From the NCBI RefSeq assembly GCF_000235425.2, contig NZ_KI912266.1:5391217-5455216 (forward strand): a DNA stretch of 64,000 bases, given 5' to 3'. Each line of letters opens with the position of its first letter. The stretch's first letter is position 1. The DNA is from Pseudofrankia saprophytica. GTDB lineage: Bacteria > Actinomycetota > Actinomycetes > Frankiales > Frankiaceae. The position numbers and the translations under genes were made by a program. Shown in pieces: positions 1-20,834 of this stretch. Below the pieces are notes generated by a model. That model was not told the origin of the DNA. It did not search any database and worked only from the letters and a program-made list of their open reading frames with translations.

Positions 1-551
1 TCGTGAGCCAGCTCGGGATCGCCGTGCCGAGCTTCTGGGTCGGCCTGATGGCGACGACCGTGTTCGCCGTCCACTGGCGCCTGCTGCCCGCCGGCGGGTT
101 CCCGCGCGACGGCTGGGCGCAGCCGGACACGGCCGTGCGCTCGCTGGTGCTGCCGGTGCTCACCCTGGCGCTGCTGGAGGGCGCGGTGCTGCTGCGGTTC
201 ACGCGCTCGGCGACGCTGGAGGTGCTGCACGCCGACTACATCCGCACCGCGAGGGCGAAGGGCCTGACCAGGGGCAGGGCGCTGGTGCGCCACGGGGTCC
301 GCAACGCCGCGCTGCCGGTGCTCAGCGTGCTCGGCCTGGAGTTCGCCAGCCTGCTGCTGGGCGCGGTCGTGATCGAGAACGTCTTCGCGCTACCGGGCAT
401 CGGCCAGATGCTCATCGTCGACGTCGGCAACCGCGACCTGCTGAAGGTGCAGGGCACGGTCCTGCTGGTCGCCGTCGCCGTGCTCGTCGTCAGCTTCCTC
501 GTCGACCTGGGCCACCGCCTGCTCGACCCGCGGCTACGGGAGGCCCGGTGA
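1..551 (+). CDS. ABC transporter permease, DppB/OppB-like (5' partial)
   Basis: Inner-membrane permease of a peptide/nickel-type ABC importer; the N-terminus lies beyond the left edge, so only about the last 180 residues are seen. Several hydrophobic segments are visible, and the permease loop motif for ATPase contact is recognisable (YIRTARAKGLTRGRALVRHG), followed by RNAALPVLSVLG and the family-typical VIENVFALPGIGQ. The C-terminus ends in LLDPRLR, usual for DppB proteins. The stop overlaps the GTG start of the next permease by 4 bases, showing a translationally coupled operon (DppB, DppC, DppD, DppF order). The substrate cannot be read; dipeptides, nickel chelates or organosulfur compounds are all carried by this family. 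Confidence 0.9.
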   Translation, partial: VSQLGIAVPSFWVGLMATTVFAVHWRLLPAGGFPRDGWAQPDTAVRSLVLPVLTLALLEGAVLLRFTRSATLEVLHADYIRTARAKGLTRGRALVRHGVRNAALPVLSVLGLEFASLLLGAVVIENVFALPGIGQMLIVDVGNRDLLKVQGTVLLVAVAVLVVSFLVDLGHRLLDPRLREAR

Positions 552-1597
552 GTGGGCCCGGCAGGGCCGCCGGTGGGGCGCGGTTCGCCCTGGGGGCGGT
601 GGCGACGGCGCGGGCGGTGCTGCGCACCCGGTCCGGGCGGCTGGGTGCCGCCCTGTCCAGCCTGATCGTGATCGCGGCGGTGGTGTCACTGCTGTGGACC
701 CCGTACGACCCGACCCAGGTCAAACCGGCCGACTCGTGGGCGCCTATGTCCGGCCGTCACTGGCTGGGCGCGGACCGGCTCGGCCGCGACCTGTTCAGCC
801 AGCTGCTCGTCGGCTCCCAGATCACGCTGGTCGTCGCCGTAGGAGCCACCGCGCTGGCGGCGATCGTCGGCCTCACGCTGGCGCTGCTCGCGACCGTGAC
901 CCCACGGGTCGTCGGCGAGGGGTTCGTGTACCTCATCGACATCCTGCTTGCCTTCCCGATGCTGCTGCTCGCGCTGGTCCTGGCGGCCGTCTTCCCGGGC
1001 CACGCCTGGACGACGGTGGTCGCGCTCGGCATCGGGATCGGCATCCAGGTCGGCCGGGTCACCCGCGGCGAGATCAACCGGGTGCTGGCCACCGACTTCG
1101 TGCTGGCCGCCCGGGCCGCCGGCGCCGGGACCTGGCGGATCATTTCCCGCCACCTGCTGCCGAACGCCATGCCGACGCTCTACGTCCAGCTCTCCCTGTC
1201 GGCGGGGATCGCGGTGCTCGCCGAGGCCGCGCTGTCCTACCTCGGCCTGGGCACCCCGCCGCCGACGCCGTCCTGGGGCCGCAGCCTGCACGAGCTGCAG
1301 GCCTACCTGACGTTGCGTCCGCTGGTGCTGCTCTGGCCCGGTCTCGCCGTCGTGCTGACCGTCCTCGGCTTCAACCTGCTCGGCGACGGCCTGCGTGAGG
1401 CCGCCGACCCGCGCCTGCGGTTCCCGACCCGCGCCGTGCCTGACGCGGCCGTGCCTGACCTGGCCTCGTCCGCCGCGCCGCCCAGTCCTGCCGCGCCCGG
1501 TTCCACCACGCCCAGTTCCGCCGCAGCCGGTCTTGCCGCGCCCGGTCCTGCCGCGCTTGGGTCGCGAGCGCTCGGTCCGCTGGACGGTGCGCGGTGA
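548..1597 (+). CDS. ABC transporter permease, DppC/OppC-like
   Basis: Second permease of the importer. The first hydrophobic segment is near residues 28-48, followed by the conserved GTDxxGRD-like element seen here as HWLGADRLGRDLFS, and the EAA-type loop AARAAGAGTWRIISRHLLPNAMP. YLGLGTPPPTPSWG near the C-terminus is diagnostic for DppC. It starts at a GTG inside the previous stop and ends overlapping the next start, so it is coupled on both sides. Oddity: after the normal end at about residue 290 there is a tail of some 55 residues rich in Pro, Ala and Ser, built from imperfect short DNA repeats; such a tail is not part of the transporter fold. Confidence 0.92.
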   Translation: MSGPGRAAGGARFALGAVATARAVLRTRSGRLGAALSSLIVIAAVVSLLWTPYDPTQVKPADSWAPMSGRHWLGADRLGRDLFSQLLVGSQITLVVAVGATALAAIVGLTLALLATVTPRVVGEGFVYLIDILLAFPMLLLALVLAAVFPGHAWTTVVALGIGIGIQVGRVTRGEINRVLATDFVLAARAAGAGTWRIISRHLLPNAMPTLYVQLSLSAGIAVLAEAALSYLGLGTPPPTPSWGRSLHELQAYLTLRPLVLLWPGLAVVLTVLGFNLLGDGLREAADPRLRFPTRAVPDAAVPDLASSAAPPSPAAPGSTTPSSAAAGLAAPGPAALGSRALGPLDGAR

Positions 1598-2481
1598 GCG
1601 CGCCGAACGAGCCGCTCTTGCGGGTCAGCGACCTGCGGGTTCGCATCGGCGGCGTGCCCGTCGTCGACGGAGTCGACTTCCAGGTGGACGCCGGCGAACG
1701 GGTCGGGCTGATCGGCGAGTCCGGATCAGGCAAGTCGCTGACGGCGCTCGCGGTCCTCGGCCTGCTGCCCGAGGCGGCGACGGTCAGCGGCAGCGTCCGC
1801 CTCGCCGGCGCGGAGCTGATCGGCCGCTCCGACCGGGAGCTGTCCCGAATCCGGGGCAACGAGATCGCGATGGTCTTCCAGGAGCCGCTGACCGCGCTCA
1901 ACCCGCTGATGCGGATCGGCCGGCAGATCGGCGAGCCGCTGCGCATCCACCGTGGGCTGTCCCGCCGCGCCGCCGACGCGGCGGCCGTGGAGCTCGCCGA
2001 CCGGGTCGGCCTTCCCGACCCGGATCGGCTGGTGCGCGCCTACCCGCACCAGCTGTCCGGCGGGCAGCGCCAGCGCGTCGGCCTCGCGGTCGCGCTCGCC
2101 TGCCGCCCGGCGCTGATCCTGGCCGACGAGCCGACGACCGCGCTGGACGTCACCGTCCAGGCGGAGGTGCTGAGCCTGCTGACCGACCTGGTGGACGAGA
2201 TGGGGGCCGCGTTGCTGTTCATCACCCACGACCTGGCCGTCGTCGCCGCCGTGACCCGCCGCCTCGAGGTCATGCGGGCGGGCCGGCTGGTCGAGTCCGG
2301 CCAGACGGGCGACGTCCTGCGCCATCCCGACCACCCCTACACCCGCGCCCTGCTCGCGGCCGCCCACGCCACCACGTGGCCACCGACCACGGGCGGCGCC
2401 ACCATCGGCGCCGGCTCCAGCACCAGCTCCGGTGCCGCCGCGAGCCGCCCGACCCAGGCGCGGAAGGCGGTCCGACCGTGA
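1594..2481 (+). CDS. ABC transporter ATP-binding protein, DppD/OppD-like
   Basis: Cytoplasmic ATPase that powers the importer together with the next gene product. Walker A GESGSGKS, signature LSGGQRQR, Walker [13 protein letters not shown] and switch His in FITHDLAV are all intact. [12 protein letters not shown] near the C-terminus belongs to the oligopeptide-type C-terminal extension, though this copy lacks the cysteine cluster of many OppD proteins. The protein is 295 residues, a little short for the family. The GTG start overlaps the permease stop by 4 bases, and the stop again overlaps the next start. Confidence 0.92.
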
Positions 2482-3443
2482 CCGACACCCGCGTGGGCGA
2501 TCCGGCCGCGGATGGGGCCACGGCTACGGGCCCAGCCGTGCTCTTCGAGGCCAGGGGGCTGTCCAGGTCGTTCCGGCTGCCGCGCGCCGAGCGGCGCACG
2601 GCCGGCTGGAAGGCCGGCCAGGCTGACGGCGACTCCCACATCCGGCGCGCCGTCCGGGACGTCACCCTGACGCTGCTCGAGGGGGCGAGCCTCGGGATCG
2701 TCGGCGAGTCCGGCTCCGGCAAGTCGACGCTCGTCCGGCTGCTGCTCGGCCTCGACCGCCCCGACGCCGGGACGGTGAGCTACCGCGGTCGGCCGGTCCG
2801 CGACGGCCGACCCCGCGACCTGCGCTGGCTGCGCCGCGACGTCCAGGTGGTTCTGCAGGACCCGGTCGCCTCGCTGGACCCGCGGATGACCGTCGAGGCG
2901 ATCGTCGCCGAGCCGCTGGAGTGCCTGCGGATCGCGGAGAACCATGACGCCCGGGTCGACGAGGTGCTGCGTGCCGTCGGCCTGGCGCCGGACGTGCGGC
3001 GCCGTTACCCGCACGAGTTCTCCGGCGGGCAGCGCCAGCGGATCGCGATCGCGCGGGCGCTCGCCCCCCGCCCGCGGGTCCTCGTCGGCGACGAGCCGGT
3101 CAGCGCGCTGGACGTCTCCGTGCGGGCGCAGATCCTCGACCTGCTCGCGGAGCTGACCGTCGCCAACCTCCTCAGCCTCGTCCTCGTCTCGCATGACCTG
3201 GGCGTCGTCGCCCGGCTGTGCGACCAGGTCGCGGTGATGCGCGCCGGCGAGATCGTCGAGCAGGGGGGCACGTCCCAGGTCCTGGAGAACCCGGCCCACC
3301 CGTACACGACGGCTCTGCTCGCCGCCGTCCCCCGCCTGCCGTCCCCGTCCGACCCCGACCCCAGCCTCAGCGCCGACCCCAGCGCCGACCCGCCGCGCCG
3401 CGATCCCGGCCAGGCAGGACCCGATGACGACGAACCCGGCTGA
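2478..3443 (+). CDS. ABC transporter ATP-binding protein, DppF/OppF-like
   Basis: Second ATPase subunit, 321 residues from a GTG that overlaps the stop of the first ATPase gene. Walker [10 protein letters not shown], signature FSGGQRQRIAIARAL, Walker [14 protein letters not shown] and the H-loop VSHDLGVVA are present, as is the extension motif NPAHPYTTALLAA. The open frame continues far upstream, but that part is antisense-like low-complexity translation of the previous gene, so the coupled GTG is chosen. The last 30 residues are Asp/Pro-rich from short DNA repeats (PDPSLSADPSADPP). It is the last gene of the operon; a strong hairpin follows about 70 bases downstream. Confidence 0.92.
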   Translation: MTDTRVGDPAADGATATGPAVLFEARGLSRSFRLPRAERRTAGWKAGQADGDSHIRRAVRDVTLTLLEGASLGIVGESGSGKSTLVRLLLGLDRPDAGTVSYRGRPVRDGRPRDLRWLRRDVQVVLQDPVASLDPRMTVEAIVAEPLECLRIAENHDARVDEVLRAVGLAPDVRRRYPHEFSGGQRQRIAIARALAPRPRVLVGDEPVSALDVSVRAQILDLLAELTVANLLSLVLVSHDLGVVARLCDQVAVMRAGEIVEQGGTSQVLENPAHPYTTALLAAVPRLPSPSDPDPSLSADPSADPPRRDPGQAGPDDDEPG

Positions 3444-3514
3444 CAGGCGGGAAGCCGACGGGCGGCCGCCCGACCGGCGGACAACCGACCCGGACCCCAG
3501 GCACGCGAGCCGCC

Positions 3515-3568
3515 CATGATCTGGTGTGATCTTCGGGCCCCCGACTCCCAGGATCACACCAGATCATG
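3515..3568. terminator. 17-bp perfect inverted repeat between convergent genes
   Basis: Perfect 17-bp arms at 3515-3531 and 3552-3568 (CATGATCTGGTGTGATC and its complement) with a 20-base centre that itself can pair (TCGGG/CCCGA). It lies between the convergent ABC operon and the rhodanese gene, so a bidirectional terminator is the simplest reading. There is no clear T-run. A second, closely related hairpin with the same GATCTGGTG core occurs at 10302-10351, so a dispersed repeat family is also possible. Confidence 0.65.
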
Positions 3569-3593
3569 AAGCGCGGCTCCGGCGGCGCGCCGC

Positions 3594-3920
3594 CTAGGCC
3601 GATTCGGTGGGCAGGCCGGCGGCCACCCAGTCCTCGATGCCCTCGCGGTACTTGCGGACGTTGGAGTAGCCGAGCGCGGCGAGCCGGTCGGCGACCTGCC
3701 CGCTGTTCGGGCAGGACGGGTTGGTGCAGTAGGTGACGATGGCGGCGTCGCGGTCCGGCAGCACGGCGGGCGCCTTCGCGTCGACCTCGGCCAGGACCAG
3801 GGGCAGCGCGCCGGGCAGGTGCTGCTGCGCGTAGTACCCGCCGCCCAGCGCGTCGACGACGGTCACGTTCCCCGCGCCGATCGCCGCCTTCAGCTCGTCA
3901 CGGGTGATGAGTGCGGTCAT
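3594..3920 (-). CDS. single-domain rhodanese-like protein
   Basis: 108-residue single-domain sulfurtransferase-like protein. The active-site loop has Cys65 in YCTNPSCPNS, with the preceding strand DAAIVTYC and the substrate-side region GYYAQQHLPGALPL typical of rhodanese domains. Such proteins transfer sulfane sulfur to an acceptor thiol; the partner is not known here. A GGAGGT ribosome site sits upstream of the ATG. The gene is divergent from a TetR regulator, and two palindromes in and next to the short shared region suggest that the regulator controls it. Confidence 0.88.
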   Translation of the reverse strand: MTALITRDELKAAIGAGNVTVVDALGGGYYAQQHLPGALPLVLAEVDAKAPAVLPDRDAAIVTYCTNPSCPNSGQVADRLAALGYSNVRKYREGIEDWVAAGLPTESA

Positions 3921-4598: not shown

Positions 4599-4976
4599 CG
4601 AGCATCTCGACGCCGCGGCCACGGCGCGGCCGTGCGCCCGCGACCGTGTGCCCCGGGCCGTGTGCCGGGGCCGTGCCGCGATGCTGTCGCGCGGCTGTTA
4701 CGCCCCTATGCCGCTATGTTCATAAACCCGATAGGGATTGCGGAATTGGTGGGAGCGGAGTTAACGTCGGGCTGTCCCACGGGGGCGGGGCCCGATCGGC
4801 CCGCTGATCCTCGGGGCGCACGTTTCGACGACGGACGGGAAAGGGCCGCGTCGTCGACCGCGACCAGGGAGGCGTTCGGCGCTTTCCGATCCAGGCTGCG
4901 ACGGCCACGCAGCGCGGTCTTTCCGGCTGACCGCGCTCGATTGGCAGACGCTCCAATCCATTTCGAGGGGGACACG
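4599..4976. other. intergenic region upstream of the TauD-like gene
   Basis: 378 bases without a supported gene. At 4700-4760 it is clearly richer in A/T than its surroundings and holds AAACCCGATAGGGATT (4724-4739), an imperfect inverted repeat that could be an operator or part of the promoter of the dioxygenase. An open frame runs through in phase with the dioxygenase, but it lacks a ribosome site and family similarity before 4977. Confidence 0.4.
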
Positions 4977-5765
4977 GTGACCGCTGTCCGTACCGCGCCT
5001 TATGAAGTCCGCCAGGCCAGCCCGGTCCTCGGGGCCGAGATCGTCGGCGTCGATCTGGCGGGTGGTATCGACGACGCCACCGCCGAGGCACTGCGCGAGG
5101 ACTTCTGGAAGTACAAGGTCCTGGTGTTCCGCGGGCAGGACCTCTCGCCGGACGCGCACGTGCGGGCCGTGCAGATCTTCGACGAGCCGTTCGACCACCC
5201 CCGGTGGCTCCACCGCCACGAGGACAACCGGCTGGTGTACACCTTCAACCTCGAGAAGGGCGGCGCCGCCTCGGCATGGCACATCGGCGGCACCTGGCGC
5301 ACCCCGCCGTTCAACATCGAGTCCCTGACCTACCAGGTAGTGCCGGAGATCGGTGGTCACACCCTGTGGGCCGACCTGCAGGCGGCCTACGACGGCCTCT
5401 CGGAACCGTTCAAGCAGCTGCTGGCATCGGTCAGCGCCGTGTACAGCGCCTACCCCGGCGACGGAACCTATGACCGGCCGCCGGTGACCGAGACCGTCGA
5501 GCACCCGGTCGTGCGCACCCACCGGCACACCGGCCGCAAGGGGCTGTTCCTCAGCTCGACCGCGCTGCGCCTGACCGGCATCGCCCCGGCCGAGGGCGAG
5601 GCCCTCCTGCCGTTCCTCCTGGCGCATGCCTCCTCCCCCAACTACACCGTGAGCTTCGGCTGGAAGCCGGGCGACTTCGTGCTCTGGGACAACCTGGCCG
5701 CCTGGCACTACGCGGTGAACGACTACGACGGCCCCCGCGTCTACCGCAAGGTCATCGGCGGCTGA
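4977..5765 (+). CDS. TauD/TfdA-family Fe(II)/2-oxoglutarate enzyme with H-x-G metal site
   Basis: 262-residue member of the taurine dioxygenase family, which oxidises substrates such as sulfonates with Fe(II), 2-oxoglutarate and O2. The GTG start follows a GAGGGGG ribosome site; similarity to TauD runs from PVLGAEIVGVDLAGG to the end. The distal iron ligand is present (His244 in LAAWHYAVNDY) and a C-terminal Arg for 2-oxoglutarate lies in GPRVYRKV. The proximal motif, WHTD in TauD, reads W-H102-I-G104-G here, so the carboxylate ligand is missing. In known members of the superfamily, H-x-G/A marks radical halogenases; loss of activity or another chemistry is equally possible. The downstream gene is a glutathionyl-hydroquinone-reductase homologue, 85 bases away on the same strand. 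Confidence 0.85.
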   Translation: MTAVRTAPYEVRQASPVLGAEIVGVDLAGGIDDATAEALREDFWKYKVLVFRGQDLSPDAHVRAVQIFDEPFDHPRWLHRHEDNRLVYTFNLEKGGAASAWHIGGTWRTPPFNIESLTYQVVPEIGGHTLWADLQAAYDGLSEPFKQLLASVSAVYSAYPGDGTYDRPPVTETVEHPVVRTHRHTGRKGLFLSSTALRLTGIAPAEGEALLPFLLAHASSPNYTVSFGWKPGDFVLWDNLAAWHYAVNDYDGPRVYRKVIGG

Positions 5766-5849
5766 CCGGGCTCCGACGCATCGGCCCGACCGGAATACCG
5801 GAGATGGCCGCGGCGGTGGCAGCGCCGCGACCTGACCAGGAGGATGACC

Positions 5850-6776
5850 GTGTCCCAGACGGCGAGTGCCACCTGTGCCAGCCCCACCGGCTCTGCCGGC
5901 CCAAGTGGCTATGCCAGCCCTACCGACGTCGCCACCCATGGCGCGTACACGATCAGGCGAGACCCGGCGGACCCGCGCCCGCTGTACCGGTTCACCGGGC
6001 GGATCACCGCGGACGGGTCGAGCGGCTACCGGGCCGAGCCAGGGCGGTACCACATCTACTCCGGCTGGTTCTGCCCGTGGGCGCAGCGGATCACCTTGCA
6101 GATCGCTCTCAACGAGCTGGAAGACGTGATCGGCGTGTCCTACGTCGACAACAGCCGTGACGCCCGCGGGTGGGCGTTCCGCGAGACCAACGGCCCGGAC
6201 CCGGTGAACGGGTTCACGCTGCTGCGCGACGCCTACGAGACGACCGAGCCCGGGTTCGACGGCCACGTCTCCGTGCCGACGCTGTGGGACCGCGAGACCG
6301 GCCGGGTCGTGAGCAACGACTACGTCACCCTCGGGATCGACCTCGCCACCCAGTTCGGCGAGTGGTCCAACGGCGCCGACACCTATCCCGAGCGCCTGCG
6401 CGCCGAGATCGCCGGGCTCGAATCCTGGATCGGCCCAGCGGTGAACCGCGGCGTCCACCGGGCCGCCAACGACGAGGCGGCCCGCGCGACGCTGCTCGAC
6501 GCGTTCACCCGGCTCGACGGCCGACTCGCCGACGCCCACTACCTGGCAGGCGGCCAGCTCAGCGAGGCCGACATCCGGCTGTGGGTCTCCCTGGTCCGCT
6601 ACCGTGGCCGCGCCCACGGCCTGGACCGGCTCCCACCGCTGTCCGACTACCCGAACCTGTGGGCCTACGCCCGTCGCCTCTACCGGCTTCCCGCCTTCCA
6701 GGCGACGACCGACTTCACCACCTTCACCGACCCCGCCGTCGCCCTCCCCGACTGGAACACTTCGCCGGCCGCGTGA
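5850..6776 (+). CDS. glutathionyl-hydroquinone-reductase-like GST (YqjG/PcpF/ECM4 type)
   Basis: About 308 residues. The family reduces glutathionyl-hydroquinones through a single catalytic cysteine; here Cys75 in SGWFCPWAQR occupies the position of the family ACPWAHR motif. The C-terminal helical domain has the conserved SEADIRLWVSLVRY and LPPLSDYPNLWAYARRLYRLP. AGGAGG at 5838-5843 directly abuts an ATG at 5844 and stands 6 bases before the GTG at 5850, so 5850 is preferred. Actinobacteria normally make mycothiol rather than glutathione, so the natural thiol is uncertain. It lies just after the TauD-like gene and may act on that enzyme's products. Confidence 0.85.
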   Translation: MSQTASATCASPTGSAGPSGYASPTDVATHGAYTIRRDPADPRPLYRFTGRITADGSSGYRAEPGRYHIYSGWFCPWAQRITLQIALNELEDVIGVSYVDNSRDARGWAFRETNGPDPVNGFTLLRDAYETTEPGFDGHVSVPTLWDRETGRVVSNDYVTLGIDLATQFGEWSNGADTYPERLRAEIAGLESWIGPAVNRGVHRAANDEAARATLLDAFTRLDGRLADAHYLAGGQLSEADIRLWVSLVRYRGRAHGLDRLPPLSDYPNLWAYARRLYRLPAFQATTDFTTFTDPAVALPDWNTSPAA

Positions 6777-8305: not shown

Positions 8306-8763
8306 GACCTGACATCGACGCCGGGCTGATGTGCAGGCGTCGTGCGCGACGAGGCTACGACGGCCGCGCACGAACTCGAAGTTCCGCGCTGGTGGCTGAC
8401 GAGCCCGCCGAGGACCGTTCTCGTGAGTACGCACGAACTGGCCTGGAGTCGACGAGGGAGACGACCGCCTGGCGCAGGTCGGCTCCGCGCGGTCCTGGAT
8501 CAGGAGAAAGTCGCCGAGAGGCTCGACCGCCATTACCTGAACGAGTTCCTCTGTGCCAAGAACGTGTGCCTGCCGGTGTAGCACTGGAGGCGCGGGTTCT
8601 CCACTGGTCTCGGAGCATCCTGACGAAGGTAAACCCGACCTCTACGGTCGCGACGAAGAGGAGGCCACCCAGCAGAATGCGGCTAACCCCGGGTGTCGAA
8701 GCCGGGCCTGGTCACGCCGGTCACGCCACGGGTCCTCCACGGGCCGTCGCCCCAGTCCATCTC
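8306..8763. other. intergenic region without a supported gene
   Basis: 458 bases between the TIR-TPR gene and a convergent orphan gene. Short frames exist on both strands (for example 8342-8581 on the plus strand, ending in VAERLDRHYLNEFLCAKNVCLPV-like sequence), but none has a ribosome site or family similarity. It may be decayed coding sequence. Confidence 0.3.
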
Positions 8764-11070: not shown

Positions 11071-12438
11071 CTATGCGACCGCGGCTGGCACCGGAGCGGG
11101 TTCCGGCACCGGGATGCGCAGGTTGTCGCGCAGGGTGCTGCCGGCGTAGTCGGCGCGCAGCGAGCCGCGTTCCTGCAGCAGCGGGACGACCTTGTCGACG
11201 AACTCGTCGAGGCCGGTCGGGGTCAGGTGCGAGCCGAGGATGAAGCCGTCCGAGCCGTCGTTCTGGACGAACGCGTCCAGCTGGTCGGCGATCTGGGTCG
11301 GGGTGCCGACGAACTCGGTCCGGCTGAACAGGTGGATGGCGAGCTCACGCAGCGAGAACCTGTTCGCCTCCGCGATCGCACGCCACTCCCGGACCGTCGC
11401 GAACGGATCCTGGTGCAGCCGCGCCCGGCCCTGGATGACCCACGGCTCGTCCGGGTCCGGGTCGACGTCCGGCAGCGGGCCGTCCGGGTCGTAGCCGGAC
11501 AGGTCCCGGTTCCACACCGCTTCGAAGAGGACCTGCGCGGTCCTGCCGGTGACCTGGGTCCGGGCGATCTCGCGTGCCTTCTCGGCCGCGTCGGTCGCGG
11601 TGTCGCCGAGCACGAACGCGCCGCCGGGAAGGATGCGCACCGAGCCCGCTGGGCGACCCGCGCGGGCGACGCGGTTCTGGATGTCGCGGTAGAACTCCTG
11701 TGCCTCGGCCAGCCGGTGGAACGGAGAGAAGATGGCGTCGGCGGTGGCCGCGGCGAAGTCCCGGCCCTGCGGGGACACCCCGGCCTGCAGGATCACCGGC
11801 CGTCCCTGCGGGCTGCGCGGCACGTTGAACCGGCCCGAGACGTCGAACTGCCAGCCACGGAAACGGAACGCACCCGCGTCGCCGTCGCGCAGGAACCGGC
11901 CGTCGTCGGCGTCCGCGACCACGGCGTCGGGCGCCCAGGTGTTCCACAGCCGGCGAGCCACGGTCACGAACTCCTCGGCCCGGATGTACCGGTCGTCCCG
12001 GTGCAGGAAACCACCACGCCTGAAGTTCTGGCCGGTGAAGGCGTCGAAGGACGTGACGACGTTCCAGCCAGCGCGGCCGCCGGACAGGTGGTCGAGAGAG
12101 GCGACTTGTCGGGCGAGCTCGTAGGGCTCGTTGAACGTCGCATTGAGGGTGCCGACCAGCCCGAGGTGCTCCGTGACCGCGGCCAGCGCGGCGAGGACCG
12201 GCAGAGTGTCAGGACGGCCGACGATGTCCTGATCGAAGATCTTCCCAAGTCGTTCGCGCAGGATGAGGCCCTCGGCGAGAAAGAAGAAGTCGAACTTCCC
12301 CCGCTCCGCCGTCTGCGCCACGTGCTTGAAGGTGGAGAAATCGATCTGGCTGCCGGCGGCCGGGTCCGACCACACCGTCTGGTGGTTGACGCCTCCGACA
12401 TAGGCGCCGAGGATGATCTGCTTGCGCGCACCGCTCAT
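11071..12438 (-). CDS. LLM-class flavin-dependent monooxygenase, NtaA/SnaA/DszA type
   Basis: 455-residue reduced-flavin-dependent oxygenase of the nitrilotriacetate/dibenzothiophene-sulfone monooxygenase branch. Recognisable elements are KQIILGAYVGGVNHQTVW, FDFFFLAEGL, LDHLSGGRAGWNVVTS, the YIRAEEF segment, RSPQGRPVILQAG and LRADYAGSTLRDNL. The ATG at 12438 follows a GAGGT site; the frame extends upstream through a 15-bp repeat array but without family similarity. It needs FMNH2 from a separate reductase, which is not encoded in this operon. It is the last gene of the seven-gene leftward operon and probably cleaves a C-S or C-N bond in the imported substrate. Confidence 0.9.
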   Translation of the reverse strand: MSGARKQIILGAYVGGVNHQTVWSDPAAGSQIDFSTFKHVAQTAERGKFDFFFLAEGLILRERLGKIFDQDIVGRPDTLPVLAALAAVTEHLGLVGTLNATFNEPYELARQVASLDHLSGGRAGWNVVTSFDAFTGQNFRRGGFLHRDDRYIRAEEFVTVARRLWNTWAPDAVVADADDGRFLRDGDAGAFRFRGWQFDVSGRFNVPRSPQGRPVILQAGVSPQGRDFAAATADAIFSPFHRLAEAQEFYRDIQNRVARAGRPAGSVRILPGGAFVLGDTATDAAEKAREIARTQVTGRTAQVLFEAVWNRDLSGYDPDGPLPDVDPDPDEPWVIQGRARLHQDPFATVREWRAIAEANRFSLRELAIHLFSRTEFVGTPTQIADQLDAFVQNDGSDGFILGSHLTPTGLDEFVDKVVPLLQERGSLRADYAGSTLRDNLRIPVPEPAPVPAAVA

Positions 12439-12483
12439 GCCGAGTACCTCGAATCGCGGGTCGACGGGGTCAACGGGGCCACT

Positions 12484-12546
12484 GCCAGCGGAGTCGTCGC
12501 CAGCGGGGTCGTCGTCAGCGGAGTGGTCATGGTCAGCGGGGTCGTC
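12484..12546. repeat. 15-bp tandem repeats between two monooxygenase genes
   Basis: About four head-to-tail copies of GCCAGCGGAGTCGTC with small variations (12484, 12499, 12514, and an expanded copy from 12529). They fill the short spacer between the second and third monooxygenase genes of the operon and keep an open frame into the downstream gene. Confidence 0.65.
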
Positions 12547-12559
12547 GTCGCCATCGGGC

Positions 12560-13774
12560 TCAGTGGGCGGCGATCGCGTAGCGGTTCGCGGGCCGGCCAA
12601 GGCCGAGGAGCCCGCGCAGCGTGTCCGCCTCGTACGCGGTGCGGAAGGCGCCGCGGCGCTGGAGCTCGGGAACCAGGGCGCGGGTGATGGCCTCGAGGTC
12701 GTGCGGGACGGCGCCGGGCCGCAGCCGGTAGCCGGACAGTCCGGCGCGCTGCCAGCCGAGCAGCAGATCGGCGAGCTCCGCCGCGGTGCCAGTGAAGACC
12801 AGGGCGTCGCTGGCGTACTCCTCCCCCGCCGTCTCGTCGAGGCGGTCCTTGCGGGCGGCGGCCGCCGCGGCGGTCTCGTCGAGGAAGACGACGAGGTCGC
12901 CGAAGACGTGGATGGTCTCGCCAGCCCGGCCGGCCGCCTCCTGCTCCGCGCGGATCTCGGCCACGATCGCCGCCGCACCGGGCTCGTCGCGCGGGGTCAC
13001 GTACACGATGTCGGCGGCGCGGGCGCCGAGCCGGTACGGGATGGTCGCGTGCGCGAGCGCCGAGACGACCGGCTGGCCCTGCGGCGGACGCGGCACGATC
13101 GACGGACCGCGGACCTTGAACCAGCGGCCCTCGAAGTCGATGTAGTGCAGCTTGTCCCGGTCGACGAACCGGCCGGAGGCGACGTCGCGGATCTCCGCGT
13201 CGTCCTCCCAGCTGTCCCACAGCCGGCGCACGACCTCCACGAAGTCCGCGGCCTCGTCGAAGGACTCGGCGACCACGGCCTGCACCTCGGGGCTCTGGTA
13301 GTCGGCCAGCCGGAACGGGCGAACCGTGCGCCGGCCGAAGTGCGAGTTCTCCGCCGGGCGCGACGTCTGGGCCCGCCAGCCGGCCCGGCCCTGGCTGGTG
13401 AAGTCGAGGGTGGCGATGGCCTTCGAGATGTGGAACGGCTCGGTGTGGCTGACGGTCGCCGTCGGCACCAGGCCGATGTGGCTGGTCAGCGGGGAGACCC
13501 GGGCCGCGATGAGCACCGCGTCGAGCCGGCCGCGCACCTGGTCGGTCCGGTCGTCCGGGCCGTCGAAGCCGGACGACTGCAGGCCGAGCGAGTCCTCGAT
13601 GGTGACGAGGTCGAGAAGGCCGCGTTCGGCCTCGAGCACCTGGTCGAGCCAGTAGCCCGGGGTGAACAGCTCCGCCGGCCGCGCGTCGGGCTCACGCCAG
13701 GCGGCGGGATGCCAGCCGGCGCCGTCGAGCGCGACGGCGAGGTGCAGCGGAGCCGTGGTCGCCGGATCTGCCAT
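12560..13774 (-). CDS. LLM-class flavin-dependent oxidoreductase
   Basis: 404 residues, bacterial-luciferase fold. Typical segments: LHLAVALDGAGWHPAAW at the N-terminus, LLDLVTIEDSLGLQS, HTEPFHISKAIATLDFTSQGRAGW, FVEVVRRLWDSWEDDAE and VPRPPQGQPVVSAL. The ATG has an AAGGAGA site. It belongs to the same operon as two other flavin monooxygenases and a peptide-type importer, so it probably acts on the same imported compound or a breakdown product. Compared with its neighbours, the C-terminal region is richer in alanine (ETAAAAAARKD) but intact. Confidence 0.88.
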   Translation of the reverse strand: MADPATTAPLHLAVALDGAGWHPAAWREPDARPAELFTPGYWLDQVLEAERGLLDLVTIEDSLGLQSSGFDGPDDRTDQVRGRLDAVLIAARVSPLTSHIGLVPTATVSHTEPFHISKAIATLDFTSQGRAGWRAQTSRPAENSHFGRRTVRPFRLADYQSPEVQAVVAESFDEAADFVEVVRRLWDSWEDDAEIRDVASGRFVDRDKLHYIDFEGRWFKVRGPSIVPRPPQGQPVVSALAHATIPYRLGARAADIVYVTPRDEPGAAAIVAEIRAEQEAAGRAGETIHVFGDLVVFLDETAAAAAARKDRLDETAGEEYASDALVFTGTAAELADLLLGWQRAGLSGYRLRPGAVPHDLEAITRALVPELQRRGAFRTAYEADTLRGLLGLGRPANRYAIAAH

Positions 13775-13898
13775 GGGAGTCGTCTCCTTCTCGTCTTTCT
13801 CGTCGGCTTCGCGTGCTGTCAGCTCCGGGCCGCGTCTGGCCAGCCCGCGGGACGCGTCGGTGCGGTGTCGGGTGCGGACCGGCCGTCCGGCGGACCGG

Positions 13899-15206
13899 TC
13901 AGCGGCGGCTCCATTCGTCGGCCAGCAACTCGTAGGAGCGCACGCGGTCGGCGTGCTGGTGGGTGATGGTGGTGATGGCCAGCTCGTCGGCGCCGGTCGC
14001 GGCCCGCAGCTGCTCCAGCCGGTCGGCGACGGTGCGCGGCGAGCCGACCAGCTGCGTGCGCACCCGGTCGGCGACCAGCTCCCGCTCCTCGTCCGTCCAG
14101 GTGTGCGCGAGGGCGTCCTCGGGAGCGGGGAACGGGATCGCGCCCGAGCCCGCGCGGATGCTCAGCACCCATGGCCCGTAACCGGCGGCCAGGCGCGCGG
14201 CGGTGTCGTCGTCCTCGGCGACGACGACGTCGGCGGACACGGCCACCAGCGGCCGCTCGAGCCGCGCCGAGGGGCGGAACGCGGCCCGGTAGGCATTGAT
14301 CCCGTCGAGCACGGTGCTCGGGCTGTGGTGGTAGGAGGCCGCGAACGGCAGCCCGCGCTGGCCGGCGACCTGCGCGCTCACGCCGCCCGACGCGCCGAGG
14401 ATCCAGATCTCGAGGTCGGCGCCCTCGCCCGGAGAGGCGTGCGCCGGCAGGCCGCCGGGGGAACGGTAGGTCCCCGCGAGCAGCGCCAGCACGTCGTCGA
14501 TCTGCTCGCCGTAGTCCGGGGCGTAGGCGCCGGGCTGCTGCAACAGCGCCAACGTCAGTCCGAGCCGGTCGGAGGCGAGCAGCCTGCTGATGTCGAACTT
14601 CTTCGGCAGCAGGAGGCCGCCCGCGGTGTACTCGTCGGCGGTGTGGTTGGCACCGCCGAGGGACGCGACGTAGTTCGCCGCCGCGCCCGCGGCGTCCGCG
14701 GCACCGGCGGCGCTCGTCGCGGCTCCGGGTCCGGCTCCGGCTCCGGACGAGACGAGCGCGGCGCCCGCGGTCACCGGTGTTCCCGCCGGGGCGGGCGGGC
14801 CGGCGGATGGCGACGGCTGCGCCGCTTCGACGGGTGCCGGCCCGTCGCCGCCCTTCGGCGCGGGCCGGCTCAGGGACCGGCCGATGCCCAGGTCGAGCCG
14901 GCCGGGGAAGGCAGCGTTCAGCAGCCCGAACTCCTCGACCACGGACAGCGGGGTGCGGTGCCCGATCTGGACGCCGGCCGAGCCCAGCCGGATCGTTCTC
15001 GTCGCGGCGCCGACCAGGGCGATGGTGACCGCGGCGGAGGCGCCGATCACGCCGCTGGCGAGGTGATGCTCCGCGAGCCAGTAACGCCGGTAGCCGAAGG
15101 CCTCCGTCCGCCGAGCCAGGTCGACCGCGTTGCGCAGCGCCTCGGAGTGCGTCGCGCCGGCGCTGACCGGGACGAGGTCGAGGACGGAAAGCGGAACATC
15201 GGACAT
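13899..15206 (-). CDS. LLM-class flavin-dependent oxidoreductase, luciferase-like, with Ala/Gly/Pro insert
   Basis: 435 residues. N-terminal PLSVLDLVPVSAGATHSEAL and YRRYWLAEHH place it in the group named after MsnO8/YhbW-like LLM proteins; LGSAGVQIGHRTPLSVVEEFGLL and LDLGIGRS follow. Then comes an insert of about 75 residues (roughly 125-200) rich in Ala, Gly and Pro, before the family resumes at LPAHASPGEGADLEIWILGASGG. Without the insert the protein would have the usual 340-360 residues. AGGAGG upstream of the ATG. Same operon as the ABC genes 28 bases upstream. Confidence 0.88.
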   Translation of the reverse strand: MSDVPLSVLDLVPVSAGATHSEALRNAVDLARRTEAFGYRRYWLAEHHLASGVIGASAAVTIALVGAATRTIRLGSAGVQIGHRTPLSVVEEFGLLNAAFPGRLDLGIGRSLSRPAPKGGDGPAPVEAAQPSPSAGPPAPAGTPVTAGAALVSSGAGAGPGAATSAAGAADAAGAAANYVASLGGANHTADEYTAGGLLLPKKFDISRLLASDRLGLTLALLQQPGAYAPDYGEQIDDVLALLAGTYRSPGGLPAHASPGEGADLEIWILGASGGVSAQVAGQRGLPFAASYHHSPSTVLDGINAYRAAFRPSARLERPLVAVSADVVVAEDDDTAARLAAGYGPWVLSIRAGSGAIPFPAPEDALAHTWTDEERELVADRVRTQLVGSPRTVADRLEQLRAATGADELAITTITHQHADRVRSYELLADEWSRR

Positions 15207-15233: not shown

Positions 15234-17054
15234 TCAGGCCCTCGCGGTGCGCGGATGGACGTCTGTCGGATCCCCGTGGATGCCCGGAGTGCCGGCAGTC
15301 GGCACGTGGCGGGTGCGGGCGGCACCGGGGATGGCGTCGAGCAGGGCGCGGGTGTACTCGTGTTCGGGACGGGCGAACAGTTCCGCCGTGCTGCCGGTCT
15401 CGACGATCCGGCCGGAGCGCATCACCGCGACCCGGTGGGCGATCTGGCGGACGACGGCCAGGTCGTGCGAGATGAACAGGTAGGCCACGCCGGTGTCGGC
15501 CTGCAGCCGCGCCAGCAGCTCGAGCACCTGGGCCTGTACCGAGACGTCCAGCGCGGAGACCGGCTCGTCGCAGACGACCAGCTCGGGGGCGAGCGCCAGC
15601 GCCCGGGCGATCGCGACCCGCTGACGCTGCCCGCCGGAGAGCTCCGCCGGGCGGCGGTCGACCATCGACGCGGGCAGCGCGACCCGGTCGAGCAGGTCCC
15701 GGACCCTGGCCAGGCGGGAGGCCCGGTCGCCGATGTGGAACACCCGCAACGGCTCGTTTATCACCTCTCCGATGGTGAACCTCGGGTCGAGGGATGCGTA
15801 GGGGTTCTGGTAGATGAGCTGGGCCCGCCGGCGCAGCGCCCGCAGCCGCCCGCCGCCGGCGCGGGTCACGTCGTCGCCGTCGAAGGTGATCCGCCCGCCG
15901 GTCGGGTCCACCAGCCGCAGCACGAGCCGGGCCGTCGTCGACTTTCCCGAGCCCGACTCGCCGACCAGCGCGAGCGTCTCGCCGCGGCTCACGGTGAAGC
16001 TGACGTCGTCGACGGCGCGCAGCAGCCGCGCCCCGCCGTCGGTCCTGGGCAGCGGGAAGTCCTTGACCAGGTGGTCCACCACGACCAGCGGCCGCGCACC
16101 ACCCACGCCCACCGCGGCCTGGGTGGCCGTCTTCGTGAGAGCGGCCGGCGGGCGGGCGGCCAGGGGCGGCAGCGAGCCGCGGGCCGCGGCCAGGCCGGGG
16201 GCGGCACGCAGCAGGCGGCGCGTGTACGGGTCGCGCGGGGCGTCGAGGATCCGCCCGGTCGGGCCGGTCTCGACGATCTTGCCGCGCGACATCACCGCGA
16301 TGCGCTGGGCGCGGTCGGCGGCGACGCCGAGGTCGTGGGTGACGAGCAGGACGGCGGTGCCGAGCTCGGTCGTCAGCCGTTCGAGGTGATCGAGGATGAG
16401 CCGCTGCACGGTCACGTCCAGCGCGCTGGTCGGCTCGTCGGCGATGATCAGGCTGGGCCCGGCGGCGATCGCGATGGCGATCAGCGCCCGCTGCCGCATC
16501 CCGCCGGACAGCTCGTGCGGGTACTGCCGGGCCCTGGTCGCCGGGTCCGGCAGGCCCGCCCGCTCCAGCAGCTCGACGGCGGCCCTGCCCGCCTCCCGGC
16601 GGCCGGCGAGCTGGTGGATCCGCAGCACCTCGGCGACCTGGTCGCCGATCCGCGCCACCGGGTTCAGCGAGACGGTCGGGTCCTGCGGGATGAGCCCGAT
16701 GCCCGCGCCGCGGATGGCACGCAGCTCCCCCGCCGGGAGCCCGACCAGGTCGTGGGCGCCGAACCGGACGCTGCCGGCGTCGATCCGGCCACCGGGTGGC
16801 AGCAGGCCGATCACGGCGTGCGCCGTCGTGCTCTTCCCGGACCCGGACTCGCCGACCAGCGCGACGATCTCCCCCGGGCGGATGTCGAGGTCGATCCCAC
16901 GGACGGCCGGGACCGGCCCGGTCCGGGTCTGGTACGAGACGGACAGCCCGCGGATCACGAGCAGGCTGTCGTTCTCCTGGTCGCTCCGCTCAGCAGCCGG
17001 TTCGGCCGGTTCGGCCGGTTCGGCCGCGGCGGGTCGGGCCGGGCCGCCGGTCAT
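15234..17054 (-). CDS. fused double ABC ATPase, DppD-DppF type
   Basis: 606 residues carrying two complete nucleotide-binding domains. First domain: Walker [10 protein letters not shown] near residue 66, signature LSGGMRQR, Walker [13 protein letters not shown]. Second domain from about residue 330: [37 protein letters not shown]. Both have H-loops. The ATG overlaps the upstream permease stop by 4 bases. Fusion of the two ATPases seen separately in the operon at 1594-3443 shows that this is a distinct importer. Its N-terminus carries a short AEPAEPAEP repeat. It energises uptake for the monooxygenases encoded downstream. Confidence 0.92.
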
Positions 17055-18019
17055 CGCTGGGTCGCCCATTCGCCGTCCAGCGCCCGGGCGATCCGGTTCG
17101 TCGACAGCACGGTCGCGGCCACCGTCAGGCCGGGCAGGGTCGAGAGCCACCAGGCGTTCGCCAGGTAGTTGCGTCCGCTCGAGATCAACGTTCCCCATTC
17201 CGGCGCGGGCGGGGCGGCGCCGTAGCCCAGGAAGCTCAGCGACGACACCGCCAGGACCGACACGCCGAAGTCGAGGGTCGCGAGCACGAGCACCGGCCCC
17301 ATCGCGTTCGGCAGCACGTGCCGGCCGAGCACGCTGTACCAGCGGGCGCCGATCGACCGGGCCGCCTCGACGTACGTCGCCTGGCGCACCTTGAGCACCT
17401 CGGCGCGCATCACCCGGGCGAAGCTGGCGACGCTCGCGATCCCGACCGCGATGGCCACCTTGACCGTGCCGTAGCCGAGCGCGGTGACCAGGGCTAGTGA
17501 CATGAACAGCCCCGGGATGGACAGCAGCACGTCGACGACGCGCATGATGACGTCCTCGGCCCAGCGGCCGACGAAGCCGGCGACGAGGCCGAGACCGCCG
17601 CCGACGACGAACGCGACGGCGACCGCGATGATCGTCGCCTTCAGTGACAGCGCGGCACCGTGCACGACACGGGCGAACACATCCCGGCCCAGCTCGTCGG
17701 TACCGAACCAGTGCTGGCCGCTGGGCCCCTGGAAGCGGCTGGTCGGTACGCCCAGCAGCGGGTCGCGGGAGGTGTAGAGCGCCGGCCAGAACGCGGCCAG
17801 CACCACCACGATCACCACGATCGCCGCCAGCACCAGGCCGGGCCGGTGCAGGAAGAACCGTCCGAGCCGGGGCAGGTCCACCCGGCGCCACGCCGAGGAC
17901 GGTTCCCGCCACGACTGCGCGAGCTTCCCGAGCTCGGCGTTCGGTTCGAGGTCCGCGCCGGCGTCTTCGGGGGCATCCGGCGCCGAGGGCGCCGGCTCGG
18001 TCGCGGCGGGGCGGGTCAC
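17051..18019 (-). CDS. ABC transporter permease, DppC-like
   Basis: 322 residues. A soluble N-terminal region of about 65 residues precedes the first membrane segment ([21 protein letters not shown]). [19 protein letters not shown] and the EAA-type loop [24 protein letters not shown] identify Dpp[20 protein letters not shown] is the C-terminal signature. GTG start, coupled by a 4-base overlap to the DppB gene, and its stop overlaps the ATPase start. Confidence 0.92.
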
Positions 18020-19059
18020 CGGGCGCTCCCCGCCACCGGCTCGATGGCCGACGTCGTCAGGACGCCGCCGCCCAGGGTCGGGTCCATCGGGGTGCTCTTT
18101 CTTCTGGAGGGACCGCGGCGGCCGGAGCCGACGGTGATCCTCGGGTCGAGGAGCGGGTACACGAGGTCGACGACCAGGTTGACCGTGATGAAGACGAACG
18201 CGCCGAAGACGACGACGCCCTGCACGACCGGGATGTCCTGCACGGTCACGGCGGCCGAGGTGATCCGACCGAGGCCGTTGCGGGAGAACACCGTCTCGAC
18301 GACGACGGCGTTCGCCATCAACTGGCCGGTCAGCACGCCGGTGATCGTCAGCGCGGGCAGCAGGGCGTTGCGCAGCGCGTGCCGCAGGTGCACCCGCGCC
18401 CGGCCCGCCCCCTTGGCCAGGGCGGTCTGGGCGTACGGCTCGGCGAGCGCGGTGAGCAGGCTCTTGGCGAGGATCTGCGCGACCATCGCGCCGGGCAGCA
18501 CCGCCAGGGTGACGGCCGGCAGTATCAGGCCGCGCAGCCCGTCGTTGCCGAAGGCGGGAAACAGCCTGATCCGGAACGAGAACAGCTGGACGAGCATCAA
18601 CCCGACCCAGAAGCCGGGGACCGACACCCCGAGCGCCGGCAGCGAGAGCAGAGCCTGGCGAAGCCATCGCTGGTTGGTGTAGGTCGCGACGAGCGCGATC
18701 GTGCCGCCGGCGAGGACCCCGATGGCGAGGGCCAGCCCGGTGAGTGCCAGCGTCGGCGGCAGCGCTTCGCTCATCACCGAGCTGACTGGGCGATTGGTCG
18801 ACACCGAGACGCCAAAGTCACCGCGCAGCGCCCTCGTCAGATAGTGGAGGTACTGCACCAGCACCGGCTCGTCGAAGCCGTACTGATATCTCAACCTCTC
18901 GATCTGCGCGGGGTCGATCCCCTGCGAGTCCATACCAGCACCGGCCATGGCCGTGACCGGGTCGCCCGGCAGGTAGTCGAGCACCAGGAACGTCACCGTG
19001 TAGGCCGCCCACAGCACGCCGACCGCCTGGGCGAGACGGCGAAGCACGTAGCGCCACAT
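18016..19059 (-). CDS. ABC transporter permease, DppB-like
   Basis: 347 residues starting at [17 protein letters not shown], the usual DppB N-terminus; an in-frame upstream extension has no support. The ATG is preceded by purine-rich GGAGAAG. Key features are [41 protein letters not shown] and the EAA loop [22 protein letters not shown]. It ends in [11 protein letters not shown] plus a short tail. It forms the transmembrane pore with the DppC-like protein encoded next. Confidence 0.92.
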
Positions 19060-19152
19060 CTTCTCCGCCGTCTCCTGTCGTCGTGTTCCTCGAAGCGGTC
19101 GCGCCCCCGCGGCCGGCTGGTCTCGCCGCCGGCCCCGCCCGCGCGGCCACAC

Positions 19153-19194
19153 CGCGGCCCCGCCGGCGGCCAGGTGACCGCGGGCGGGGCCGCG
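19153..19194 (-). terminator. GC-rich hairpin between binding-protein and permease genes
   Basis: Twelve-base perfect arms CGCGGCCCCGCC (19153-19164) and complement (19183-19194), loop 18 bases. It lies within the operon, 12 bases after the binding-protein stop. In such transport operons a hairpin here usually lets the binding protein be made in excess over the membrane subunits; that role is inferred. Confidence 0.6.
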
Positions 19195-19205
19195 TGCTCA
19201 GTCGG

Positions 19206-20834
19206 TCAGCTCTTCCAGGTGTCGTGCAGCTGGATGCGGCTGGACGCCTCGAACTTCAGGTCGTGGACGTTCTTGCCGACGCCGAGTTCGGTCTCGAGCT
19301 CGACGACCGGGACGACGTAGGCGTTGTCGACGACCAGCCGCTGAGCCCGCTCGACGAGCGCCGCGCGCTTCGTCGCGTCGGGCTCCGCGGCCTGCTGGGC
19401 GAGCACCGTGTCCAGCTCGGTCACCGGGATCTTGTACGCGTTGAGGCCCTTGGTGGAGTACTGGCTGCGCAGGATGTCCGGGTCGGCCCGGGTCAGGTTG
19501 CCCCACAGCACGTCGAAGTCGGCGCCCGTCAGGATCTGGGTGATCTGCGCGATCTGGAGCTGCTTCAGCTCGACCTGGACGCCGACGGCCTTGAGCTGCT
19601 GCTGGACCAGCTCCATCGCCGGCTGGTTGGTGGCGGCGTTGGCGAACCAGGTGATCGTCAGGGAGAGCGGGGCGCCGTCCTTCTGCCGGATCCCGTCGGC
19701 GCCAAGCTTCCAGCCCGCCGCGTCGAGCAGCGAGCCGGCCTTCGCCTTGTCGAAGGTGAGGCTGGAGCTGAGGTCGACGTAGCTAGGCGTGGTGTGCGAG
19801 AGGATGCTCGTCGCCGGCTTGGTCCCGGTCGGGAACACGGTGTCGACGATCTGCTGCCGGTCGATCGCCAGACCAATCGCCTTCCGCACGTTCGGGTCGG
19901 TGTAGGGCGCCTTGGAGTTGTTGAAGCTCAGGCCGAAGGGCACACCCGGGTTGGCCCGGGCCTGCAGCTGGGCGCCGCTGCCCTCCAGTGCCGCCTCGTC
20001 CGCCTGGGCCACGGCGCCGATCGCGTCGACCTGGCCGGACTGCAGGCTGGAGGTCCGCACACCGGCCTCCGGCACCACCTTGAACTCGAGCGCGTCCAGG
20101 TAGGCGTCACCGGACTTGGTGAACAGCGACGAGCCCCAGGTGTAGCCGGTGCGCTTCGTCAGCGAGATCGACTGGCTGGGCACGTACTTCGACAGCACGA
20201 ACGGCCCGGAGCCGATCACCCCGTCGCTGCAGCGCGCCTGCGGGGTCTTCTTGACGCTCGCCTCGGACACGATGCCGAGCGAGAACGTCGAGGTGGCCTG
20301 CAGGAACTGGGCGTTCGACTGCTGGAAGTCGATCTCGATGGTCTGGTCGTCGATCACCTTGCTGCCGGCGTAGCCACCCAGATAGCCGGCGCCCAGCTGG
20401 GCGAGGGCGCCCAGCTTGGGGATCGCCTCGAAGTTGTCCTTGACCACCTGCGCGGTCAGCGGCGTGCCGTCGCTGAACGTGACACCGGGCTTGAGGTGGA
20501 AGGTGAAGGACTTCGCGTCGGCACTGATCTCCCAGCTCCGCGCGAGCCAGGGAACGATCTTGCCCGTGTCGGGGTCCTGGTCGGTCAGCGAGTCGACGAG
20601 CTGGCGCGTCGAGTAGACCGTGTCGTTGCTGCCGACCTGCTGCGGGTCGACGCAGCCGATGTCCGAGCCGACCGCGAAGGTCAACGTGCCGCCGGGCTTC
20701 GGCGCGGCACTCGCGGGCGCGCCGCCGTCGGAGGAACCACCGGAACCACAGGCGCTCAGCAACGTCGTGCCGACGGCGAGCGCGGCCACAGCCACGGCCC
20801 ACCGGGTGGGTGCGGACTGTCTTGATTGATTCAC
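19206..20834 (-). CDS. ABC transporter substrate-binding lipoprotein, solute-binding family 5
   Basis: 542 residues. N-terminal signal with lipobox (ALAVGTTLLSACGS) places it outside the membrane by a lipid anchor. Family 5 landmarks: GGTLTFAVGSDIGCVDPQ, LARSWEISADAKSFTFHLKPGVTFSDGTPLTA, and NNSKAPYTDPNVRKAIGLAIDRQQIV. The GTG start is preceded by a GAGGAGGAGA run. It is the first gene of the leftward importer-monooxygenase operon and captures the substrate. Divergent to it is a stretch with a CACTTTGT inverted repeat that may bind the operon's regulator. Confidence 0.92.
   Translation of the reverse strand: MNQSRQSAPTRWAVAVAALAVGTTLLSACGSGGSSDGGAPASAAPKPGGTLTFAVGSDIGCVDPQQVGSNDTVYSTRQLVDSLTDQDPDTGKIVPWLARSWEISADAKSFTFHLKPGVTFSDGTPLTAQVVKDNFEAIPKLGALAQLGAGYLGGYAGSKVIDDQTIEIDFQQSNAQFLQATSTFSLGIVSEASVKKTPQARCSDGVIGSGPFVLSKYVPSQSISLTKRTGYTWGSSLFTKSGDAYLDALEFKVVPEAGVRTSSLQSGQVDAIGAVAQADEAALEGSGAQLQARANPGVPFGLSFNNSKAPYTDPNVRKAIGLAIDRQQIVDTVFPTGTKPATSILSHTTPSYVDLSSSLTFDKAKAGSLLDAAGWKLGADGIRQKDGAPLSLTITWFANAATNQPAMELVQQQLKAVGVQVELKQLQIAQITQILTGADFDVLWGNLTRADPDILRSQYSTKGLNAYKIPVTELDTVLAQQAAEPDATKRAALVERAQRLVVDNAYVVPVVELETELGVGKNVHDLKFEASSRIQLHDTWKS

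Follow-up and report, generated by a model that had tools for sequence, protein, structure and literature searches.

Sulfonate and sulfate-ester dioxygenases of the TauD/AtsK/Rv3406 type (Pfam PF02668), which depend on Fe(II) and 2-oxoglutarate (2OG) and carry an HxD motif, are the described enzymes to which the protein reported here is most similar. Iron sites without the carboxylate of this motif also occur naturally, and we take the Fe/2OG radical halogenases BesD and WelO5 to have a two-His, carboxylate-free site of this kind. According to PMC2767507, radical halogenases, represented there by SyrB2, keep two His and have Gly or Ala in place of the HxD carboxylate, and HXG/A serves as a halogenase marker in PMC12871659, a source that itself warns of false positives. 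Human AspH, which belongs to a different family, likewise has a natural two-His Fe/2OG site; according to PMC13168262, this site supports hydroxylation where a water is kept at the place of the Asp by a second-sphere carboxylate. Finally, removal of the Asp from TauD (D101A) led to a loss of activity, gave no halogenation and was rescued by formate, as reported in PMC2767507; a carboxylate that is not attached at position 101 can therefore serve.

The locus studied here lies in a 64,000-nucleotide stretch of Pseudofrankia saprophytica DNA, the whole of which is referred to as the window. A strong ribosome-binding site, GAGGGGGA, is located just 5′ of the GTG start of the gene, and the encoded protein, designated HxGG, reads A-W-H102-I-G104-G at the place of the family HxD. 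The gene and the codons of its metal and 2OG site are given below.

4966..4973, + strand, ribosome-binding site of the HxGG gene, read from the sequence
4977..5765, + strand, HxGG TauD-family oxygenase gene, 262 aa, GTG start, no Cys and no internal Met
5280..5291, + strand, codons of H102-I103-G104-G105 (HxGG replacing HxD), from translation and orthologue alignment
5319..5321, + strand, codon of E115 (Glu in 37/37 HxG sequences, Asp or Glu in 0/106 HxD relatives)
5361..5363, + strand, codon of T129, aligned with TauD Thr126 (2OG)
5553..5555, + strand, codon of S193 (Asn in 79/106 HxD relatives), by alignment
5703..5708, + strand, codons of W243 (clade marker) and H244 (distal Fe ligand), by alignment
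5736..5738, + strand, codon of R254, aligned with the 2OG-binding Arg

Both a profile match and the fold placed the HxGG protein in the TauD/TfdA family. It matched the Pfam TauD profile PF02668 with 165 bits (E 4.3e-48; cut-off, 27 bits), and its AlphaFold2 model (mean pLDDT 91.4, pTM 0.89) was superimposed on E. coli TauD with a Z score of 33.4 and an rmsd of 2.0 Å over 255 residues, in agreement with the first-pass annotation, which had described a TauD-like protein over its full length. Structural alignment of this predicted structure with solved TauD, AAD-1/RdpA, PlaO1 and AtsK, the nearest solved relatives, yielded Z scores of 31 to 33, and the fold agreed with the TauD/AtsK/Rv3406 type at 28 to 33. 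Foldseek was also run, and its top match was PlaO1 (7qtf; 32% identity over 254 columns), which has the TauD fold in common with HxGG but itself carries the canonical WHTD motif.

The alignment then made of TauD-like segments required a span of 170 query residues or more and the absence of stops, and it comprised 37 distinct HxG sequences (38 rows, the query having been entered twice) and 106 HxD relatives; the truncated remnants L172/L193 and L176/L194 and the own-genome paralogues L006 and L016-L019 were left out. Position 104 is Gly in all 37 distinct HxG orthologues and Asp in all 106 other TauD relatives examined, and the canonical Asp or Glu two residues past the first His is thus missing from each of the 37. 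The same 37 sequences are invariant for H102, T129, H244 and R254. The first-pass annotation had read H-I-G for HxD, with both His and the C-terminal 2OG Arg kept, and every part of that reading (H102-I-G104, H244 and R254) held, T129 being retained in addition: the metal carboxylate is truly lost, throughout the clade, and both His remain. Restoration of an Asp or Glu in orthologues had been named beforehand as the sequence outcome that would speak against the halogenase or new-chemistry proposal, and no orthologue examined restores either residue. Sequencing error or a pseudogene as the source of HxG was ruled out, since Gly104 is kept in every orthologue examined and dN/dS of the gene is 0.16 to 0.19 (four of five orthologue pairs computed). 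Taken by itself, the motif fragment also matches lectins with WHxGGxW, which was regarded as coincidence.

The changes at the site are not limited to the HxD motif. G104, G105, W107, F112, E115, S193 and W243 are present in all aligned HxG rows, and the metal-site region is deeply remodelled and conserved at these residues. The protein has both His, T129, R254 and H74 in common with the TauD/AtsK/Rv3406 type but differs from it in HxGG for HxD, in Glu115, Ser193 and Trp243, which mark the HxG clade, and in Lys258, which aligns to TauD Arg270. H74, aligned to TauD H70, is invariant across the 38 HxG rows. TauD residue numbers were counted by hand from the HxGG-TauD sequence alignment, and the roles of the aligned TauD residues (Thr126, H70, Arg270 and the 2OG-binding Arg) are those that we assume for them.

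In a tree of 98 rows (38 HxG and 60 randomly picked HxD), whose bootstrap is not fully settled, the HxG sequences formed one clade with a support of 100/99. The Streptomyces abikoensis protein, 40% identical to HxGG, is placed at the base of the clade and still has G104 and E115. An isolated mutation as the origin of HxG was ruled out, the motif being clade-wide in the tree, and since there is one HxG clade, G104/E115 represents one event kept by selection, not repeated covariation. Among the 106 HxD rows, position 115 is Ser in 63, Ala in 24 and Thr in 19, and an acid in none. Nine acidic positions are conserved across the HxG rows, with no more than two of the 38 deviating, and E115 is the sole one that is found in all 38 and is acid-free in every HxD row; D73, for example, is kept in 37/38 HxG rows, but an acid also appears there in 7/106 HxD rows. 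As assigned by DSSP on the AlphaFold2 model, E115 lies at the start of strand 114-121, after the HxG loop, and this strand presumably faces the metal. Judged from hairpin parity with T129 and from structures of other 2OG oxygenases, the E115 side chain would point into the active site near the metal. The alignment makes Glu115 a likely compensating carboxylate, acting directly or via water; it could instead bind substrate.

Orthologues of at least 85% identity were found in 16 of 35 genomes of the window's family, its own genome included, in which PF02668 has 19 matches. The close relatives among the best 80 loci belong to Pseudofrankia, Frankia, Protofrankia, Mycobacterium gordonae, Actinomadura, Pseudonocardia and Streptomyces, and a 40% identical relative occurs in S. 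abikoensis. Matches at E ≤ 1e-42 were obtained in 4/396 genomes of a phylum sample, two of these with HxD relatives only, and matches at E ≤ 1e-46 in 3/297 genomes of family f90 and 5/301 of the mycobacterial family f4. The pattern WH(I/V)GGxWR was detected in 20/393 genomes of the class, one of them (L151) a chance match, and in 15/392 Streptomyces genomes, with three chance matches (L177, L178 and L182) and the two truncated remnants L172/L193 and L176/L194; the chance matches were dropped because their similarity is confined to the pattern and its surroundings (≤22 residues). The remnants lie at 8589-8846 (−) in L193 and near 8719-8844 (−) in L194, with luciferase-like monooxygenase (LLM) genes nearby. 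Plasmid copies of the gene were also considered and rejected: identity was the basis of comparison, and none of the 13 plasmid records found exceeds 38%. The genes of M. gordonae and of genome G671 (L055 and L150/L169; 77 to 80% identical) fall inside an otherwise Frankiaceae branch (100/100), their exact place within it being weakly supported (90/38), and this placement in the tree suggests horizontal transfer.

The neighbours of the HxGG gene in the window are as follows.

548..3443, + strand, second Opp/Dpp-type ABC transporter (permease, ATPases)
5844..6776, + strand, next gene, Xi-class glutathione transferase (Xi-GST)/glutathionyl-hydroquinone-reductase homologue, ATG at 5844, two Cys and no internal Met
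11071..12438, − strand, NtaA/DmoA-family FMN monooxygenase (LLM), no Cys or internal Met, orthologues adjoining HxGG in Streptomyces
12560..13774, − strand, NtaA/DmoA-like FMN monooxygenase (LLM), just below the NCBIfam cut-off, no Cys or internal Met
13899..15206, − strand, MsnO8-family LLM monooxygenase, no Cys and no internal Met
15234..17912, − strand, Opp/Dpp-type double ABC ATPase frame
18016..19152, − strand, Opp/Dpp-type permease
19206..20834, − strand, SBP_bac_5 solute-binding protein

The HxGG gene therefore sits between two Opp/Dpp-type ABC transporters (548-3443 and 15234-20834), with a TetR-type regulator upstream and three LLM flavin monooxygenases at a distance of 5 to 9 kb. The solved protein nearest to the LLM encoded at 12560, orthologues of which also lie beside HxGG in Streptomyces, is DszA, followed by YtnJ/MoxC and by nitrilotriacetate (NTA) and dimethyl-sulfide monooxygenases, with hexachlorobenzene dehalogenase lower. 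The gap between HxGG and the next gene is 78 bases and not the 85 given in the first-pass annotation; this neighbour, described there as a thiol-dependent quinone reductase homologue, recurs at few loci, with strong homologues at 7/37 HxGG loci, all of Frankiaceae and the window counted. A tight operon of HxGG with Xi-GST was accordingly rejected, and the latter is not an essential partner of HxGG; a distant GST (33% identical) is found near HxGG in L186. Directly 3′ of the Xi-GST gene, 6884-8305 (+) encodes a protein with a TIR domain and, after it, tetratricopeptide repeats, which may act in defence or signalling. The palindrome AAxCCCxATxGGGxTT is present at 4724-4739, about 240 bases upstream of the HxGG gene, and is the sole window site at up to one mismatch, where two matches are the chance level (mean 1.96); it was rejected as a shared operator, being absent from 34 other upstream regions of orthologues.

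Gene order around HxGG varies widely, even inside Frankiaceae. We compared the neighbourhoods of 37 distinct intact HxGG loci (25 + 6 + 6, duplicates and two remnants removed), a set that differs from the 37 motif sequences and equals them in size by chance. Within the stretches examined, which are unequal in length and in some cases short contigs, an LLM monooxygenase was found at 23/37 HxGG loci versus 4/68 HxD loci. The HxD controls with an LLM amount to 4/43 of those with full flanks and 2/34 of the actinobacterial ones, and the enrichment has a Fisher p of 6e-10 against all HxD loci and of 4e-7 against the actinobacterial ones, relatedness being ignored. The LLM profile was seeded from seven of the counted loci, and an LLM is present at 16 of the 30 loci outside the seed; the matches are weak or short in four of the 23 (L056/L205, L165, L188 and L191). 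Neighbouring genes were called by a simple ORF caller, the first version of which missed the Xi-GST of the window. Copies of the window's LLM pair, 60 to 74% identical, adjoin HxGG in Streptomyces (L059, whose contig is also that of L190; L060; and L186).

ABC uptake genes were observed at several, not all, of the HxGG loci. In L206, HxGG comes after genes for a permease, FAD and 4Fe-4S proteins, a binding protein of the NMT1 type, a hydrolase, an LLM and an SBP5 protein; a permease of the same family stands with an NMT1-type binding protein in L191 and with an ABC ATPase in L185. The FAD_binding_2 protein (615 aa) and the 118-aa 4Fe-4S protein of L206 are encoded at 1443-3643 (+), and we take this pair to be APS-reductase-like; likewise, "Ssu-like" would be our own label for transporters that Pfam names BPD_transp_1/NMT1. 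The searched stretches of 14/37 HxGG loci contain no LLM, and at L157, L160 and L164 the genes of the window that served as queries find nothing besides HxGG. At these three LLM-free Frankia loci and at a fourth, L155 (6300-7493), an FMN oxidoreductase of the Old Yellow Enzyme type lies next to HxGG and is a possible alternative partner of it; such loci do not speak for sulfur.

Cys and Met are rare in these proteins, HxGG itself containing no Cys and no Met past its start. Calculated on aligned segments and not on whole proteins, 35/37 HxG sequences have neither residue after the first position and the remaining two hold one or two Met; the mean over the HxG segments is 0.03%, and the HxD segments average 2.06%, with 13/106 at zero; the mean for 32 window ORFs, module genes among them, is 1.76%. 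The three adjacent luciferase-like monooxygenases at 11071-15206 (455, 404 and 435 aa, approximately 1,290 aa in total) have no Cys and no internal Met and constitute a sulfur-free enzyme module. LLM stretches near HxGG genes (n = 51) contain 87 Cys and Met in 18,458 residues (0.47%), and those near HxD controls (n = 4) contain 58 in 1,137. Four of the 13 own-genome HxD TauD paralogues counted (L001, L002, L004 and L009) are also Cys/Met-free past the first residue of the aligned segment. Sulfur avoidance therefore marks a role, not the metal site, and these paralogues agree better with a set of enzymes for sulfur scavenging than with a trait tied to the site. PMC8557817 and PMC11022551 tie a sulfur-poor composition to sulfur-starvation enzymes, TauD and Ssu proteins included, and HxGG resembles the sulfur-scavenging TauD-type members in both its sulfur-poor composition and its organosulfur neighbourhood.

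Sulfur-free enzymes encoded beside DszA/NtaA-type monooxygenases and ABC uptake genes indicate scavenging under sulfur starvation. On balance, we consider it probable that HxGG is a TauD-fold Fe(II)/2OG oxygenase that gains sulfur from an organosulfur compound when sulfate is scarce, with Glu115 replacing the Asp directly or via water. The protein would be made in sulfur starvation, as its avoidance of sulfur amino acids, and that of its partner enzymes, leads us to infer. Iron would be held by H102 and H244, and Glu115, from the next strand, would take the place of the Asp as a direct ligand or through a metal-bound water, the latter in parallel with D721 of AspH. O2 would be activated with 2OG and the carbon adjoining sulfur or a sulfate ester hydroxylated, after which sulfite or sulfate would leave, as in TauD or AtsK. 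Sulfonates, sulfate esters and the products formed by the flavin monooxygenases nearby are the candidate substrates, and the invariant H74 together with Lys258 at the place of TauD Arg270 makes a sulfonate or sulfate substrate plausible. By analogy with the TauD mutant, a Glu paired with the loss of Asp would be the built-in equivalent of externally added formate. The formate rescue of TauD, the two-His case of AspH and the exchange of Asp for Glu115 are the reasons for which an organosulfur oxygenase with a Glu115 carboxylate is favoured.

The first-pass annotation had proposed a halogenase or a new chemistry in the TauD family. Radical halogenation, in which Cl− or Br− fills the site of the missing Asp and is passed to a substrate radical, would agree with an HxG that keeps both His and the 2OG residues and with the use of HXG/A as a marker in PMC12871659; the hexachlorobenzene dehalogenase among the relatives of LLM 12560 and, weakly, the quinone-reductase-like Xi-GST at 7/37 loci leave room for halogen chemistry. 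Nevertheless, we regard this proposal as unsupported and very unlikely. The HxGG clade differs from the radical halogenases in having an invariant new carboxylate, Glu115, beside the site and in its Cys/Met-free proteins and organosulfur-type, sulfur-scavenging setting. Moreover, no polyketide or peptide assembly-line protein was present among 47 proteins selected from HxGG loci and scanned with Pfam, which included a single AMP-ligase (L055), one class V aminotransferase (L156), one decarboxylase (L169), one protein resembling acyl-CoA carboxylase (L056) and two DIOX_N oxygenases (L058 and L203). A profile search of PDB sequences with HxGG returned no entry named halogenase and a few hits without a stated function, which is weak evidence, and none is named in the 50 rows of the VIA-align structural list, a result that does not amount to evidence of absence. 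According to PMC2767507, neither TauD D101A nor P4H D414A/G gained halogenation, and the two-His site of AspH hydroxylates, as stated in PMC13168262; HxG, although in use as a marker, is not by itself diagnostic of a halogenase. The other half of the proposal, new chemistry, is possible but improbable: a sulfur substrate (sulfonate, sulfinate or thiolate) would bind iron at the open site and undergo a reaction that differs from TauD hydroxylation. The extensive and conserved changes around the site, its organosulfur setting and H74, invariant in all 38 HxG rows, are consistent with such a reaction, but the data give no sign of substrate ligation, and Glu115 may fill the open site.

Glu115 is also the point at which an AspH-like hydroxylase would part from the organosulfur oxygenase that we prefer. 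With two His and a water in the Asp site, Glu115 would be left to another job, such as contacting a cationic part of the substrate; AspH itself is the natural precedent (PMC13168262), and E115 is invariant, its orientation being predicted. This possibility is doubtful, given that D721 of AspH, the water-holding residue four before H725, has no counterpart in HxGG proteins, the corresponding position 240 being Gln in 17, Leu in 14 and Arg in 7 of the 38 HxG rows, and that the strict G104-E115 pairing is left unexplained. Least probable of all is a dead or regulatory relative that binds only 2OG or a metabolite. The inactivity of TauD D101A without added formate (PMC2767507) would be in keeping with it, but H102, T129, H244 and R254 are invariant in 37/37 sequences, dN/dS is 0.16 to 0.19, and the gene is kept beside oxygenase genes in several families.

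A TauD-family oxygenase is a known kind of enzyme; its altered metal site is new. Among the matches listed in a search of the open-licence literature, titles and abstract openings mention neither an HxG clade in the TauD family nor a relocated carboxylate. We tentatively suggest, at a strength somewhat short of probable, that the iron carboxylate was relocated across the clade into a new facial triad (HxG...E...H), which may define a distinct sulfur-free, C-S cleaving class that works during sulfur starvation and possibly performs a reaction beyond the reach of canonical TauD enzymes. Like AspH, the HxG clade appears to be a naturally occurring exception to the HxG/HxA halogenase signature, in this case from the TauD family. 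If Glu115 binds the metal, evolution would itself have answered a question that has so far been addressed with mutants, namely whether the carboxylate of the facial triad is able to move; if it does not, HxGG would add to the natural two-His oxygenases a small, soluble bacterial system that allows hydroxylation versus halogenation to be tested directly. HxGG and the three flavin monooxygenases would form a sulfur-free module with which soil actinobacteria of the Frankia group degrade organosulfur compounds.
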